Origin: Aerococcaceae bacterium zg-252
GTDB lineage: Bacteria > Bacillota > Bacilli > Lactobacillales > Aerococcaceae
DNA: 64,000 nucleotides
Assembly: GCA_016237705.1 (NCBI GenBank)
Contig: CP066204.1
Coordinates: forward strand, 1,064,001-1,128,000
Direction: 5' to 3'
The position numbers were made by a program, and so were the translations under genes. Under the pieces are notes generated by a model that was not told where the DNA came from, did no database searches, and saw only the letters and a list, made by a program, of their open reading frames with translations. Position 1 is the first letter of the stretch. Each line of letters begins with the position of its first letter. Below are positions 2,544 through 56,890 of the stretch, piece by piece.

Positions 2544-3863
2544 TTACGCCCTCACTAAATACAATGTGTTCTCCGCTTGTGTCGTAGGAGGAGCCGTCAC
2601 TACTTGCACATTAATCGATGTCCCGTCTGCCCCTTTGGGTCCAGGTGTACTTTGAACATTACGCAATTCTTGTTTCGTGGCATAAGTAGTGTTAGCAGTG
2701 GACTGAGTGAGGTAATTTTTACTGTTAAGAATAGTTTGAGTGACATAGCCTTTATTGTTCAAAGTAGTATTGGTGACGTAGCCCTTGTTGTTTAAGGACG
2801 TTTCCGTAACGTAGCCCTTACTGTTTAAGGTGGCATTTGTGACGTAATCACCAGTAGGTTGTTTACCTGCTAAAGCTTGTGTTAGACCTGTTATCTGATT
2901 AATTACATGTGTATGTTCCCTTTCAGCATATGATAATGGATTAATCAATTCAGTAATTCCTACTTCTTTTCGCATAACACCAACGCTTGTGACCGTACCA
3001 AATTTACCATTATCATCTAAAAAATAATCAATATTCGGACGTATCTTATCGTATCCAACTTTTTCAGCTAATGCACTCGTATACACAACGGGTACATTAC
3101 GCAACTCTTCCTTCGTCGCATACCCCGATAAATCAACATTTTGCGCTCTGATTTGATTGATTTGTTCTGGTGTTAAATCCTCAAATCTCAATGGGTCGCC
3201 TTTTTGACCACGCTCCCCTCGTTCCCCGCGCTCACCTCTTGCTCCTTGAGCACCCTGAACTCGAATCCAAGTATAGCGTGAAGCGTCCGTACTGCCCGAC
3301 TCAACATTATCGTTATAGATACCAATATGCGTTCTATTCGTACTGTCCGTTAGCGAAAAGTTTTGAATACTTTGAATTTCTTTAGTAATAGTAACTGCTG
3401 GGTCTTCTCCAAACAATCGTAAATTCAATTGATGTGTCCCAGCTGCAAGTTCTTTGTATAACCACTTATCACCTTTGCCAAAACGCACGAGCGTTTTAGC
3501 CTGTAATGTTACACTCGAATTTTCTTGAGCTAGATAGGTAATAGTCGCATAAGCAATATGAACGTATTGACTATCTCCTTTATCACCCTTCGGACCAGAT
3601 ACGCCACGTTCACCTGTCGCCCCTTGCGGACCAATTGAACCTGTTGCACCCGTCGCACCCGTCAAGCCGCGTTCACCACGTTCACCTTGGGGACCCGTTA
3701 AATACTTCAACGCACTAAACCGATTCGTACCGTCACCGACCTTTAAAAAACCAGTGTCCGTTTCAACACCAATCTCGCCCTCAAGTAAAATCACCTCACT
3801 TGCTTGCCATTGCGCTTTTGTCATTCGCTTATGTTGTACTCGCATTGGTACTGTTTCTACCAT
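2544..3863 (-). CDS. Collagen-like phage tail fibre / hyaluronidase-like receptor-binding protein
   Basis: 439 residues. I chose ATG at 3863 because it has GGAGGTG upstream and overlaps the TAA of the preceding gene by one base (TAATG); an upstream frame extension exists but lacks support. The N-terminus (VQHKRMTKAQW..., 'GEIGVETDTGFLKVGDG') matches the phage hyaluronidase/Mtd-type N-terminal domain that anchors fibres to the baseplate. Gly-X-Y collagen-like blocks follow at about residues 57-96, 210-232 and near the C-terminus. Residues of about 350-400 hold a short repeat (LNNKGYVTxT) in four or more copies. It is probably a trimeric receptor-binding fibre. Confidence 0.8.
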   Translation of the reverse strand: MVETVPMRVQHKRMTKAQWQASEVILLEGEIGVETDTGFLKVGDGTNRFSALKYLTGPQGERGERGLTGATGATGSIGPQGATGERGVSGPKGDKGDSQYVHIAYATITYLAQENSSVTLQAKTLVRFGKGDKWLYKELAAGTHQLNLRLFGEDPAVTITKEIQSIQNFSLTDSTNRTHIGIYNDNVESGSTDASRYTWIRVQGAQGARGERGERGERGQKGDPLRFEDLTPEQINQIRAQNVDLSGYATKEELRNVPVVYTSALAEKVGYDKIRPNIDYFLDDNGKFGTVTSVGVMRKEVGITELINPLSYAEREHTHVINQITGLTQALAGKQPTGDYVTNATLNSKGYVTETSLNNKGYVTNTTLNNKGYVTQTILNSKNYLTQSTANTTYATKQELRNVQSTPGPKGADGTSINVQVVTAPPTTQAENTLYLVRA

Positions 3864-5914
3864 TAACTTACACCTCCGTCTAATATTAATTCTGGATTTT
3901 CTGACCACTCGCCTTGATACGCCATAGTTCGATTTCCTTCGGCTATTTCACGATACTCTGTTAAAATATCAATCGTAGTATCTTTTTCAATTCGCACCTC
4001 TTGCGAATATCGTTTATACCAGCCTGACGTCATCAAAACAGTGTAGTCACCAGGCAATACATCAACCGTCTTACTGCCTGTTTGAACAGTCGTCAGCTTG
4101 CTTGAACTTGGCGTTAACGTTATCGTCACACCACGCACTGCTTCTCGACCAAAGTTAAAGTTAACTTTCGCTTTCGCTAACAATTCACACAACGCTTCAA
4201 ACGATATCGTATACGTCTGTCCCTTCTTAAATCCACCGTCATTAGCCTCTATCGTAATATGGTCATCTGTAAATAATAATTTACGGTCAACCTCTCCGAT
4301 AAGAATATTCTTACTGTAACGAGGCTTTCCGTCATTACCAATCATTTCAGCATTGACACGACTGGACTCTCTCACCGATTCGATTTGTGATTTCAACGCA
4401 TCAAAATCTAGTAACTCCAAATTGATTTTCTTAGTGATTGCTTCAATTTTTTCTTCTGATAAGTCCAACGATTTCAATTCTTCACGGAACTTTTCTAACT
4501 CTTCTTCGTTACGTGCGTGGATTTTCTCTATTTCGGCTTCGGTGGTTTTTAGGTGGTCTTCGACTTGTTTAAATTTCTTAGCTAGTTCAAGTTCGAATGT
4601 TTCAGTATCTATAAGGACTTCCCACATCTCTCCGTTCCAGCGTTTCATTCGAGTATACTTACCGTTTTGTTCAAACCAAATATCATCAACTTTATGCTCC
4701 ATATTAGGATCTGGTGTGCTAAACCAAATACGATTTCCTTTACCGTTAATTAAATAAGGCGGTAGCTCCGCCTGCGATTGCTTCTTCACGCTATTCTCAA
4801 TCTGATTTAGTCGAGTTGCCACGTCATCTGCAATCGCACTTCGTAAACTTGTGCCCACTGAACCAATCTCAACAGAAATATTGCGTTCAAGCAATACGTC
4901 ATATTCAATCGTATTTACTTTTGCATTATCAGACGTAATCCCAATTGTTGGATAATAAATTGGTAATCTGTCACACAGTTCGACTTCTTCCATAATCTTC
5001 ATATCTGCATAATCTAAGGTAGTTGATAAATCGATATAAGAAATTTTCGTCTTAATCTTAGGCTCACCAATACGATTATTTTTAACATATCGCTGCGCTA
5101 ACTTCCGTAGCTTCTCTTCAGTAGGTGTTTCGTTTTCTTTGAAACTTGTTGAGAAGTCAACAGTTAAAATACGTTTATTAGCAAAATTATTCGCAAAAGC
5201 CCCTTCGATAATCAATTCTGGCAAAGTAATGATTTTCTCTTCGTTACTTTCTTGAGTCGTATAAATAGTGTAAGGATAGATAGCGGTATAGGTTGATTCG
5301 ATATCAATATCCGCTTCAGCAGAAAGAATATTCCGTCCATACTCCAATACAGTCGGTGTTTTTCTTCCTAATTCTTTATGAAGTTTAATCGTCGTATTAT
5401 CAAATTCATACTCGCCACCCCATACATCAAGGATAGAACCCGATGCACCACCTAGGGCTAATCGAGCGTTTTGAATGTTTTGAACATTCCACTGCGTACT
5501 ATTAACCGTTGTAATATCTGACCATACATCAAACTGAAAATCACCAATTAAATTATTTTTCCACGCTACTAAAGCAGCCGTTGCATCACCATTCACTTTT
5601 GCATTCACTTTTACCGCTAAATGTTCTGTCTTATGACTGATATGTTTAGCGTGTATCTTGATTTTACGGCTAGAAGTATCTTTGATAATCCGGCTGATTT
5701 CGAACGTTTGATTCTTCGTACGAACTCCCGCATCGGCTTTAACTTTCATCTCTTTTTCGAAAATACTCGCCATTTCACCATTAATCGGATACTCCATATA
5801 GAGTGAATAATTACCGTTTCGTTCTCTCGTAACGACTGCAGAAATCGCATCTATTTCGCCTAAGCCATACGTAGTAAATGTTTTTTCATTAGCATTGAAT
5901 AAGATAGGTTTCAT
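3863..5914 (-). CDS. Phage tail-associated (Tal/prophage endopeptidase-type) baseplate protein
   Basis: 683 residues. The first ~350 residues (start MKPILFNANEKTFTTYGLGEI) match the phage minor structural / prophage tail endopeptidase N-terminal region that forms the tail-tip hub below Dit. A glutamate- and lysine-rich predicted coiled coil spans about residues 430-510, followed by a beta-rich C-terminal part that may bind carbohydrate ('GGFKKGQTYTISFEAL'). No lytic transglycosylase or NlpC/P60 domain is visible, so this version is probably structural rather than lytic. ATG overlaps the stop of dit (ATGA), which indicates coupled translation. Confidence 0.82.
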   Translation of the reverse strand: MKPILFNANEKTFTTYGLGEIDAISAVVTRERNGNYSLYMEYPINGEMASIFEKEMKVKADAGVRTKNQTFEISRIIKDTSSRKIKIHAKHISHKTEHLAVKVNAKVNGDATAALVAWKNNLIGDFQFDVWSDITTVNSTQWNVQNIQNARLALGGASGSILDVWGGEYEFDNTTIKLHKELGRKTPTVLEYGRNILSAEADIDIESTYTAIYPYTIYTTQESNEEKIITLPELIIEGAFANNFANKRILTVDFSTSFKENETPTEEKLRKLAQRYVKNNRIGEPKIKTKISYIDLSTTLDYADMKIMEEVELCDRLPIYYPTIGITSDNAKVNTIEYDVLLERNISVEIGSVGTSLRSAIADDVATRLNQIENSVKKQSQAELPPYLINGKGNRIWFSTPDPNMEHKVDDIWFEQNGKYTRMKRWNGEMWEVLIDTETFELELAKKFKQVEDHLKTTEAEIEKIHARNEEELEKFREELKSLDLSEEKIEAITKKINLELLDFDALKSQIESVRESSRVNAEMIGNDGKPRYSKNILIGEVDRKLLFTDDHITIEANDGGFKKGQTYTISFEALCELLAKAKVNFNFGREAVRGVTITLTPSSSKLTTVQTGSKTVDVLPGDYTVLMTSGWYKRYSQEVRIEKDTTIDILTEYREIAEGNRTMAYQGEWSENPELILDGGVS

Positions 5915-35725: not shown

Positions 35726-35814
35726 ACTTTTTTCTCCTCTTCTGACAAACATTCTTAAATAAATTAACTTATTCAGCGGAATATCGTGATTTGGGGTCAA
35801 TGACCACTTTTATT
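35726..35814 (-). promoter_or_regulatory. rplS 5' leader (possible L19 leader RNA)
   Basis: About 90 bases lie between the -10 and the rplS start codon, longer than needed for translation, and hold a small GGTC/GACC hairpin and an 'ATTCCGCTG' segment. L19 leaders with autoregulatory function are known in Firmicutes. I could not confirm the consensus by eye, so this is tentative. Confidence 0.3.
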
Positions 35815-35981: not shown

Positions 35982-37049
35982 ATGAAACGTATAGCATTTA
36001 CTGGTGGTGGCTCAATCGGTCATGTTGCCGTCAATGTCGCACTAATTCCTTATTTTCAACAAAAAGGTTATGAAACTTTCTACATCGGTTCAAAAAATGG
36101 GATTGAAAAAGAAATGATTAGCGAACTCGATAATGTGCCCTACTATGCGATAAGTAGTGGTAAGCTGCGTCGTTATTTTGATTTAAAAAACTTTTCAGAC
36201 CCTTTTAAAGTGATGAAAGGAATTGCTGACGCTGTTCACATCTTAAAGCGTGAGAAACCAGACTTTGTCTTTTCTAAAGGTGGTTTTGTCAGTGTACCGG
36301 TTGCTATCGCTGCAAAATTATTAAAAATCCCAATTGTGTTACACGAATCTGATGTCACACCTGGTTTGGCAAACAAAATTAGTATTCGTTTTGCAAATCA
36401 TATTTTTACAACCTTTGAGCAAACGGCAGAGCATTTACCAGCTAATCAAGCAACACCGATTGGAGCAATTATTCGTGATAATTTATTTAGTGGTGATAAG
36501 GATAAAGGATTACAATGGAGTGGCTTTTCAACTGAAAAACCGATATTACTCGTAATGGGTGGCTCACTTGGTTCCAAAGCAATTAATGATGCGATTCGCT
36601 CTAATTTAGATGAATTGCTATTGAAATATCAAATTATTCATTTAACTGGCAAAGGATTACTGGATACTCACTATCAACGTGCTGGCTACCAACAATATGA
36701 ATTTATCACTAATGAATTGAATGATATTTTAGCCATGACAGATTTTGTCGTATCACGAGCTGGTTCAAATTCAATTTTTGAATTTTTAGCCTTGAAAATT
36801 CCAATGTTATTAATTCCATTATCCAACCAAGCAAGTCGTGGTGACCAAATACTAAATGCTGCTTATTTTGAAAAACAAGGCTATGCACTGGTACTAAATG
36901 AAGAAGATGTTACATCTCAAACATTAATGGAACAATTATCAAACCTTGAACAACAAGCACCAACCATTAAAGAAACAATGGCTACCTATAAAATGCAAAC
37001 ATCATTGGAAGATTTTTATCAACTTATTTTACAACATACAAATAACTAA
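35982..37049 (+). CDS. MurG-like UDP-GlcNAc:lipid glycosyltransferase (MurG2 type)
   Basis: 355 residues with AAGGAG upstream. It has the two-domain GT-B layout: N-terminal loop 'TGGGSIGHVAVNVALIPYF' (canonical MurG has GGTGGH), 'DFVFSKGGFVSVPVAIAAKL' and 'HESDVTPGLANK'; then 'LLVMGGSLGSKAIND' and the acceptor/donor segment 'DFVVSRAGSNSIFEFLALK'. MurG adds GlcNAc to lipid I at the inner membrane face. The altered first loop and stand-alone location, not in a division cluster, fit the second MurG-like paralog found in many Firmicutes, so its exact substrate is uncertain. Confidence 0.8.
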   Translation: MKRIAFTGGGSIGHVAVNVALIPYFQQKGYETFYIGSKNGIEKEMISELDNVPYYAISSGKLRRYFDLKNFSDPFKVMKGIADAVHILKREKPDFVFSKGGFVSVPVAIAAKLLKIPIVLHESDVTPGLANKISIRFANHIFTTFEQTAEHLPANQATPIGAIIRDNLFSGDKDKGLQWSGFSTEKPILLVMGGSLGSKAINDAIRSNLDELLLKYQIIHLTGKGLLDTHYQRAGYQQYEFITNELNDILAMTDFVVSRAGSNSIFEFLALKIPMLLIPLSNQASRGDQILNAAYFEKQGYALVLNEEDVTSQTLMEQLSNLEQQAPTIKETMATYKMQTSLEDFYQLILQHTNN

Positions 37050-52423: not shown

Positions 52424-53449
52424 TTATGCTTGTGCTGACAAAACATCTTTAATCAGACTATACATATATTGTTCTGCATCAAATTTCTGTAAATCAGTGG
52501 CTTTTTCACCTAAACCGATATATTTTACAGGAATATCTAATTCGTGACGAATTGATAGAACAACCCCACCCTTAGCTGTACCGTCTAATTTGGTTAAGAC
52601 CAATCCAGTAATTTCAGTCGCCTCATTGAATTGTTTCGCTTGAATTAACGCATTTTGACCAGTTGTTGCATCTAATGCTAAAAAGACTTCTTGTACCCCA
52701 TTTGGATTTTCACGCTCGATAATACGTTTAATTTTAGCTAATTCTTGCATTAAATTCGCTTTTGTTTGCAGACGACCAGCAGTATCAACTAATAAATAAT
52801 CATATTGTTCAGCATTCGCACGTTTTACTGCATCGAACACAACGGATGCTGGGTCACTCTGTGCTTTACCGGTTACCACTGGAATATTTAAACGTTCGCC
52901 CCACACATTCAATTGCTCAATCGCACCTGCTCTAAATGTATCGGCAGCAGCAAGTAACACTTTGTGCCCCTCTTGAGCTAATTGATAGCCTATTTTACCT
53001 ACTGATGTCGTTTTCCCAACGCCATTGACCCCAACAAATAAAATCACCGTTGGGCCGTCAGGATTTAAGTGAATATGTTCCTTTTGTTCGCCGTCTTTTT
53101 CATAGATTTGAACCATTTTTTCAAGCATTACTTGCTTGACATCTTCTGCTTTCGTAACACCACGTGTTTCCAATTCATCACGAATCGCATCTGTTAATGC
53201 CATTGTCATTTGAAAACCAACATCAGCTCCGATAAAAGCCTCTTCTAAATCTTCATAAAATTCTTCGTCTAATTCACGAAAACTGCTAAATAATTCATTA
53301 ATACGTTGTGAAAAGCTCTTACGAGTCTTTTCAAGTCCCTTATCATATGTATCAAAAACAATCTGCTCTTCCGATTGCTGTTTTTCAATTTCTTCGACAA
53401 CTTTGTCTTCGCCTGTAAACGCACGACGAATACGATCAAATAATCCCAT
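52424..53449 (-). CDS. ftsY: Signal recognition particle receptor FtsY
   Basis: 341 residues. A short acidic N-terminal A-domain is followed by the NG GTPase: G1 'VGVNGVGKTTSVGKIG', 'LLAAADTFRAGAIEQL', G3 'LLVDTAGRLQTKANLM', 'GLVLTKLDGTAKGGV' and the closing 'YIGLGEKATDLQKFD'. It docks ribosome-SRP complexes to the translocon. AAGGAGA is upstream. It lies downstream of a hairpin-repeat region and a HAD phosphatase gene in the same direction. Confidence 0.97.
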   Translation of the reverse strand: MGLFDRIRRAFTGEDKVVEEIEKQQSEEQIVFDTYDKGLEKTRKSFSQRINELFSSFRELDEEFYEDLEEAFIGADVGFQMTMALTDAIRDELETRGVTKAEDVKQVMLEKMVQIYEKDGEQKEHIHLNPDGPTVILFVGVNGVGKTTSVGKIGYQLAQEGHKVLLAAADTFRAGAIEQLNVWGERLNIPVVTGKAQSDPASVVFDAVKRANAEQYDYLLVDTAGRLQTKANLMQELAKIKRIIERENPNGVQEVFLALDATTGQNALIQAKQFNEATEITGLVLTKLDGTAKGGVVLSIRHELDIPVKYIGLGEKATDLQKFDAEQYMYSLIKDVLSAQA

Positions 53450-53465
53450 ATTTCTCTCTCCTTGT

Positions 53466-53699
53466 ATTTTGGTTCGTTCGGCTTGCCGTCCACTTCAAAA
53501 ACTTCCTTTGTGCGATTCTCGCACTCCGTCAGTTTTCTCCAGTGGTTCAAGCCAAAGCAGCCTCACTCACACTATGTTATATTTTGGTTTGTTCGGCTCG
53601 GCTTGCCGTCCACTTCAAAACTTTCTCTTTGCGATGCTCGCACTCCGTCAGTTTTCTCCAGTGGTTCAAGCAAGAGCAGCCTCACTCACACTATGTTAT
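53466..53699. repeat. Two tandem ~117-bp copies of a hairpin-forming intergenic repeat
   Basis: Copy A is 53466-53580 and copy B 53581-53699, about 90% identical, with a 5-base insertion in B. Each forms a long nested hairpin: in copy A GGCTTG/CAAGCC (53480-53485, 53548-53553), CCACT/AGTGG, AAAACT-type/AGTTTT and GTGCGA/TCGCAC (53510-53515, 53519-53524). Stems are kept in copy B apart from the outermost end. It carries no transposase and no likely gene, so it looks like a dispersed repeat (MITE/RUP/REP class). Confidence 0.82.
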
Positions 53700-53700
53700 A

Positions 53701-54510
53701 TTAGTTAATATAATGGTAAATAGCTTGAGCCACACCATTTTCATCATTGGTTGCTGTAATATATTGTGCAGCCTGTTTGACCGAATCAACTGCATTTCCC
53801 ATTGCGACACCAACACCAGCAACCTCAATCATCGTCAAATCATTTTCTTGGTCGCCAATTGCCATTAATTCGTCAGCAGCAATCTCTAAATGTTTTGCCA
53901 ATTCCAATAAAATATTTCCTTTAGTCACCGATTTTTCAACAATTTCTAATAAATTCGTCCGAGATTTAAAGACAGAATAATCTTCAAAAAACTCTTTTGG
54001 AATCAATTGAATTTGTTGGTCTAAATAATTCGGTTCGCAGCACACGACAAATTTATTAAATTCATGCTCAGAATCAAACGCATCATAATCCATAAAGCAT
54101 GTCGCAAGATTTTTACGTTCATCTAAGTAAATTGACGGGTGATTTTCGGGATATTGATGTGGCTCATAAACAAATGCTTGGTCAATTAAATTGAGTGGTA
54201 ACGCCAATTGTTGTGTTAGACTATCCCAACGCTTTAAATCACGTGGCGTTAACACATATTGCTTAATAATTTCGCCATTTGCTGCCTTTTGAACTAAACC
54301 ACCATTAAAAGTAATAATATAATCATCGTCCGAATTTAATCCAATTTCAGATACGAAATCTTTCATCGCAAAATAAGGTCGCCCAGTACATAAAACAATT
54401 TTTACACCCTGTTGGTGTGCAAAATACAATGCGTCAATATTTTCTTTTGTTATCATTCCTTGACTATTTAACAAAGTGCCGTCTAAATCGATAGCTATTA
54501 GTTTTATCAT
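53701..54510 (-). CDS. HAD-superfamily Cof-type phosphatase (YidA-like)
   Basis: 269 residues. Motif I 'LIAIDLDGTLLNS' (DxDGT), motif II 'IVLCTGRPYFAM', then a C2 cap domain and motif IV 'MAIGDQENDLTMIEVAGVGVAMGNA' with the motif III Lys in 'SVTKGNILLEL'. It is a cytosolic sugar-phosphate phosphatase of broad specificity by family. ftsY lies downstream across the hairpin repeat. Confidence 0.92.
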   Translation of the reverse strand: MIKLIAIDLDGTLLNSQGMITKENIDALYFAHQQGVKIVLCTGRPYFAMKDFVSEIGLNSDDDYIITFNGGLVQKAANGEIIKQYVLTPRDLKRWDSLTQQLALPLNLIDQAFVYEPHQYPENHPSIYLDERKNLATCFMDYDAFDSEHEFNKFVVCCEPNYLDQQIQLIPKEFFEDYSVFKSRTNLLEIVEKSVTKGNILLELAKHLEIAADELMAIGDQENDLTMIEVAGVGVAMGNAVDSVKQAAQYITATNDENGVAQAIYHYIN

Positions 54511-56774: not shown

Positions 56775-56890
56775 CTCCTATAAAATATTTTTTCGGGTTT
56801 CCCCTACACTTAGACTCGCCATGTTAAGTGTCGATTGAACTTAAAACTTAACTTGTGCGGTTGCAGTTGTGGTGCTACACAAATACAACA
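56775..56890 (-). promoter_or_regulatory. L21 leader (ribosomal protein autoregulatory leader), putative
   Basis: A 120-base leader precedes rplU. On the minus strand ACACTTA pairs with TAAGTGT around a 12-base loop (in 56805-56832), and further pairings are possible upstream. Firmicutes rplU operons carry the L21 leader motif (Rfam 'L21_leader'), and the context fits. Covariance with the model was not tested. Confidence 0.6.

Follow-up and report, generated by a model that had tools for sequence, protein, structure and literature searches.

The window analysed here, a stretch of 64,000 nucleotides from the genome of Aerococcaceae bacterium zg-252, contains a tandem repeat pair (53464-53699) between two ORFs on the minus strand. 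By the naming of the first-pass annotation, the upstream ORF (53701..54510, minus strand) is a HAD-type gene and the downstream ORF (52424..53449, minus strand) is ftsY; relatives of the latter were found by similarity. The stop of the upstream ORF is followed by 7 nt, the pair, another 15 nt and the ATG of the ftsY ORF at 53449. The pair consists of two direct copies with a start-to-start period of 119-120 nt, which are 93% identical across 86 nt and 84% identical across 38 nt. Unit 1, next to ftsY, occupies 53465..53574 and unit 2, next to the upstream gene, 53580..53693, both on the minus strand. As structured RNA repeats they matched the covariance model R1, described below, with 106.1 and 103.3 bits, respectively. 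In the alignment, 5 nt of the outer stem of unit 2 are missing from unit 1. The AT-rich linker between the units is TAACA (53575..53579, minus strand), and a second TAACA precedes unit 2 (row 1117465). The Shine-Dalgarno stretch of ftsY, AAGGAGAG (53456..53463, minus strand), starts after the 3′ end of unit 1 and one flanking base. The ORF list has four mechanical frames of 80-108 aa overlapping the pair, none of which was judged to be a gene. For the pair itself, the first-pass statement that there is no transposase holds.

The minimum free energies of copies 1 and 2 on the minus strand were -39.9 and -34.5 kcal/mol (z -4.5 and -2.8), and 0/200 and 2/200 shuffled sequences folded as well. On the plus strand the values were -31.9 and -27.8 kcal/mol (z -4.4 and -1.6); 14/200 shuffles equalled copy 2, which is therefore little above shuffles on this strand. 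The tandem pair of nested hairpin repeats described by the first-pass annotation is real and the stems that it named are present, but they had been written on the plus strand, the complement of the better-folding minus (mRNA) strand. The FtsY protein encoded in the window shares 90% identity with those of Globicatella sanguinis and G. sulfidifaciens. In 14 relatives compared, no unit was found upstream of ftsY; the corresponding sequence in G. sanguinis is TAAAAGGAGG. An effect of the pair on ftsY mRNA is plausible from its position.

R1 was built from 44 copies (alignment A1). In the zg-252 genome (G000; one contig, 2,098,780 bases), R1 found at least 142 copies at E ≤ 0.01, a lower bound because 150 of the 852 candidates were scored. 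BLASTN with copy 2 against the same genome, the check that had been proposed, gave 63 matches at E ≤ 1, the weakest with E 0.4. The copies group into 100 sites: 63 with a single unit, 32 with two units and 5 with three. They include two subfamilies of equal length with different outer and second stems. The sister species G002 has at least 150 copies. Two drafts of the same genus, G001 and G003, have one and two copies, so a high copy number is dispensable.

Within the family, R1 had matches in 35 of 76 genomes at E ≤ 0.01. All tallies in the larger samples are lower bounds, with few candidates scored per genome and strict filters. Under these terms the narrow model R1 matched 49 of 395 genomes of the order at E ≤ 1e-4, and 2 of 398 genomes of the class at the same threshold (zg-252 itself and G011). 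A second model, R2, built from alignment A2, matched 106 of 395 genomes in the order sample, from 35 of 80 genera, and one of 398 genomes in the phylum sample, that of zg-252. In Aerococcus tenax, 30 matches were found in the 300 kb examined, the weakest with 22.6 bits. Phage records gave no match to the family, and plasmid records gave one, in A. tenax. The 591-kb A. tenax replicon labelled "plasmid unnamed1" (CP127381; L225, L226 and L228) starts with dnaA and has rpoB and ribosomal protein operons; it looks like a chromosome.

RNAalifold predicted 35 pairs for A1, 24 of which show changes on both sides within the zg-252 genome. A1 has 241 double-change cells, compared with 71 ± 9 after shuffling, and 95.6% of its cells are paired, compared with at most 42% when the partner was slid. 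The same structure was then applied to 56 matches (42 distinct rows) at 29 loci of other genomes. These loci are mostly from other genera, and three matches (L131 twice and L132) are from the same genus. In this set there were 426 double-change cells compared with 115 ± 9 after shuffling, and 95.5% of the cells were paired compared with 31-42% with slid partners; the alignment was fitted to the model and leans towards it, which the slide control and the shuffles, which keep relatedness, answer. Double changes were seen in 32 of the 35 pairs. The nested hairpin is thus conserved by covariation both in zg-252 and in other genomes. The first-pass annotation had named, as grounds for giving up its reading, that only these two copies exist and that their pairing is not conserved in relatives; both are contradicted, and its observation is right but too modest.

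Matched arms can also be explained at the DNA level. If the element were a plain MITE, transposition or quasi-palindrome correction would keep the arms matched, the RNA would have no role, and the placement would reflect merely tolerated insertions or an AT-rich target. We consider this explanation rather unlikely. Correction templated by the opposite arm should erase internal loops, yet in the copies of other genomes the unpaired columns are the most invariant ones while the stems change. One internal loop has GA opposite GA (41/41 and 40/41; 39/41 and 40/41). Another has GGA opposite GA (41, 40 and 41 of 42; 42 and 42 of 42). In the bulge G-Y-U-Y, the G is kept in 39/40 and the third base is U in 38/41, and the A and G flanking a variable base are kept in 33/34 and 33/41. 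A correction at the DNA level is also at odds with the strand asymmetry of the pairs. Among paired cells read on the mRNA strand, G.U and A.C numbered 92 and 9 in A1, 64 and 14 in A2, 351 and 102 in A3 and 114 and 39 in A4. Because G.U exceeds A.C on the mRNA strand, the mRNA-sense strand is the folded strand.

The GGA module was compared with a kink-turn, in which a 3-nt bulge is followed by tandem G.A and A.G pairs. This candidate was rejected because the column after GGA pairs in the standard fashion (GU 29, AU 8 and GC 7 of 44), which leaves one bulged G and tandem GA only. In a further subfamily (L037 3273-3387, L041 5739-5853 and L053 3099-3213), the outer frame is the same and the apical part is different: GCAGAGGTC or GTAAAGGTC, a hairpin with a GAAGT stem, and GAGCTATGC.

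No Rfam 15 family reached its gathering score for the pair (window scan) or for L201, L210, L205 and L214. With E up to 10 there were three weak matches, none near its own gathering score. Elsewhere in the window, Rfam RF02895 (Staphylococcus sRNA S414) scored above its gathering score at 36507-36681 (minus strand), in this Globicatella-related genome. The matches at 35746-35787 and 56802-56872 (minus strand) are ordinary ribosomal protein L19 and L21 leaders.

We located the units relative to genes that were called by ORF length, so that single gaps may be off. In zg-252, 35 of 100 sites have a same-sense stop no more than 12 nt from their start, and 53 have a same-sense start with a Shine-Dalgarno stretch no more than 25 nt from their end. 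Taken together, 75 sites abut a same-sense stop or start and 25 abut neither. Where both edges were found, 59 of 67 sites were tight, compared with 33.7 expected under uniform placement. The distance from unit to start codon peaks at 12-14 nt (37/53), and in 39/53 the base right after the unit is the first of the Shine-Dalgarno stretch. When the edge test was run on the opposite strand, 0/100 sites abutted an antisense edge. In G002, 50 of 68 sites were tight in sense, 2 of them also touch an antisense edge, and none was antisense only. The sense orientation of the edge-abutting units in both genomes and the Shine-Dalgarno stretch at offset 0 argue against the plain MITE.

The direction of the sites relative to the genome was also considered. 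On each side of 990 kb, a boundary set from the data, the sites have a prevailing direction, which 89 of the 100 follow. Replication-oriented insertion was rejected as the cause: 7 of the 11 off-direction sites have a same-sense neighbour, and therefore the units follow genes.

Aerococcus breaks the rule of sense placement. In the annotated A. tenax sequence, 12 of 30 copies share the sense of both neighbouring genes, 4 that of the upstream gene only and 14 that of neither; for one of these 14 antisense copies the upstream neighbour is out of view. One of the antisense copies begins at a distance of 24 nt from an annotated start codon. Sense orientation is the only one seen among the 6 copies located no more than 10 nt from a stop on the same strand. 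Among 20 copies taken from 14 further genomes, ORF calls place 6 antisense to the genes on both sides, and G002 has one antisense array of five units. Because of these copies in A. tenax, in other genomes and in G002, a role in mRNA is not universal. Those in A. tenax and elsewhere favour the plain MITE.

Terminators follow the unit in some genomes. By eye, all nine copies in G201 are followed by about 25 nt and then by a hairpin with a T-run. A similar hairpin was seen by eye after most of the other 11 copies compared, with L210 and L215 lacking it. A strict script found a terminator hairpin after 4 of the 20 copies from the 14 further genomes and missed imperfect ones that are visible by eye. 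In G140 (L211 and L212), and also in G201 (L196-L204), the element's 5′ end (GAGTGGGACAAAAA in G140) appears by eye to complement the following terminator in its loop and 3′ arm. An alternative pairing is therefore possible in G140 and G201.

An amplified cis-regulatory leader that senses a ligand or a protein could account for part of this pattern. Nearly invariant internal-loop modules at fixed spacing, units just before Shine-Dalgarno stretches and, by eye, a terminator 3′ arm that partly complements the 5′ end of the unit in other genomes are all consistent with it. It is nevertheless improbable: the 100 sites lie by many different ORFs, some of them after stops with no same-sense gene downstream, and a single genus spans copy numbers of 1 to at least 150.

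Mobility was examined at orthologous junctions of zg-252 and G002, which share 77 reciprocal best genes at ≥ 60% identity (median 90.6%). Four of ten junctions compared are empty in zg-252 and filled in G002. The junction at 582234 has seven units in G002, that at 443853 three units and a duplicated gene, and that at 469052 five antisense units; the fourth is at 714313. The remaining junctions compared are either common to both genomes with unit turnover or hold remnants. In G201, nine dispersed copies are identical over 118 nt. In G002 (L246, ~3410-4378), a short gene is tandem-duplicated together with its flanking unit array, as if by recombination between arrays.

The arrays themselves are variable. 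Nested units were found in G002, with 10 matches at 8 of 40 loci, where one unit interrupts another after CACTGG or a degenerate form of it; none was found among the zg-252 loci examined. This pattern could also arise through slippage at A-runs. Recombination within arrays yields mismatched units, and because these arise and many sites hold remnants, broken units are tolerated. Array linkers often repeat the array's own flank, which fits either target duplication or local tandem growth. In some arrays, such as those at 1297182, 1408008 and 466893, 5-6 AT-rich nt are common to flank and linker; the flank repeat is not clean at the empty/filled junction pairs. Mobility and these repeated AT-rich flanks favour the plain MITE. 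By eye, no clear terminal inverted repeats were seen in the zg-252 copies, and elements of the G201 type have a 5′ end similar to the inverted terminator arm.

RUP elements have IS630-Spn1-like ends and a TA target. The first-pass annotation had suggested a lineage-specific MITE/RUP-like family. MITE-like mobility is supported, whereas "lineage-specific" is too narrow for a family that matched 35 of the 80 genera sampled in the order. The elements are short, present in many dispersed copies and, judging from the ORF list only, non-coding, and their classification as a MITE-like mobile repeat is well supported.

We also searched for an enzyme that could move the units. If they were repeats of the REP/BIME type, mobilised by a REP-associated tyrosine (Y1) transposase, Y1 genes should occur in the repeat-bearing genomes. 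High copy number, the hairpin and tandem arrays fit such a system, and Y1 genes gave 7 matches in zg-252 and were present in 36 of 76 family genomes. However, no Y1 match was found in five copy-rich genomes (G064, G065, G072, G073 and G074), in copy-rich G002 it occurs at one place only, with stops inside, and the units are ~119 nt and not 20-40. The REP/RAYT candidate was rejected; Y1 as a requirement is largely refuted and this explanation is extremely improbable.

RNA-mediated spread, by a SINE-like or ribozyme-bearing satellite, fits the strand constraint, the mRNA-sense placement, the tandem units, the AT-rich targets and the lack of clear terminal inverted repeats in zg-252. Reverse transcriptase (RVT_1) genes were found in 12 of 20 tested genomes, including zg-252 (5 matches) and G002. 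In its boldest form, which we hold to be very improbable, the RNA itself would be the mobile agent or guide: transcripts would be inserted mRNA-sense at stop/Shine-Dalgarno junctions in an RNA-directed manner, as a bacterial counterpart of SINEs, and the loops would serve that machinery or self-cleavage and not the host. RNA-mediated spread in general is just as doubtful. RVT_1 was not found in 8 of the 20 genomes, five of them single-contig and copy-bearing (G011, G028, G073, G074 and G075), and by eye the element ends look inverted in other genomes. Neither Y1 nor RVT_1 is required in every genome that now holds copies.

Several known repeats resemble the family, in each case by description only. 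Bacillus cereus bcr1-bcr3 are MITE-like and often lie in UTRs or between operon genes; bcr3 is tied to mRNA decay rate, and bcr10 and bcr18 are transcribed within 5′ UTRs and their secondary structure is conserved (PMC3446304). The bcr repeats are described there for the B. cereus group. BOX, RUP and SPRITE are small interspersed pneumococcal repeats with strong RNA structure, and BOX varies in size and is thought to affect co-transcribed genes (PMC3049150). Pneumococcal repeats and the present family both belong to Lactobacillales, but BOX, as described, is made of boxA, boxB and boxC parts, unlike the hairpin unit. Efa-1 of Enterococcus faecalis (163 bp, 65 copies) is a pair of adjacent stem-loops (PMC2267715); from its description it resembles the hairpin-plus-terminator form of G201 and may be the same family. 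Correia elements, which are likewise similar as described, are MITEs in mRNAs and reported RNase III targets (PMC10969869, PMC3049150). The family is large and apparently unnamed: none of the papers listed in literature searches names it, which is no proof that it is undescribed.

Our preferred reading, which we think probable, is a mobile MITE-like repeat that is transcribed as a conserved rod-like hairpin under selection and probably serves as an mRNA stabiliser, insulator or processing site. Covariation, strand asymmetry and loop invariance give good support to selection on the RNA fold. Placement at stops, Shine-Dalgarno stretches and terminators suggests a role in mRNA, at its ends, in its decay or in cistron insulation; similar effects have been reported for bcr3 and suggested for BOX. 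The rod would consist of nested helices parted by nearly invariant non-Watson-Crick modules. Units would spread at the DNA level by a putative transposase and multiply locally into tandem arrays, and their RNA fold would be retained because most of them lie within mRNAs. The most likely cis role would be that of a structured spacer that separates cistrons or precedes a terminator; it may shield or process mRNA segments and leave the following ribosome-binding site accessible. Long duplexes with imperfect pairing are natural targets of RNase III or of RNA-binding proteins.

Interspersed repeats in bacteria are commonly regarded as DNA parasites and their hairpins as by-products. Here, compensatory changes maintain a fold in different genera of one order, its loop modules hardly vary, and in two species the units adjoin gene edges directly and in a single sense. 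This adds a large structured-RNA family without an Rfam 15 match. These features also make it possible to test whether a mobile repeat has turned into, or is obliged to serve as, a functional RNA component of dozens of mRNAs at once.
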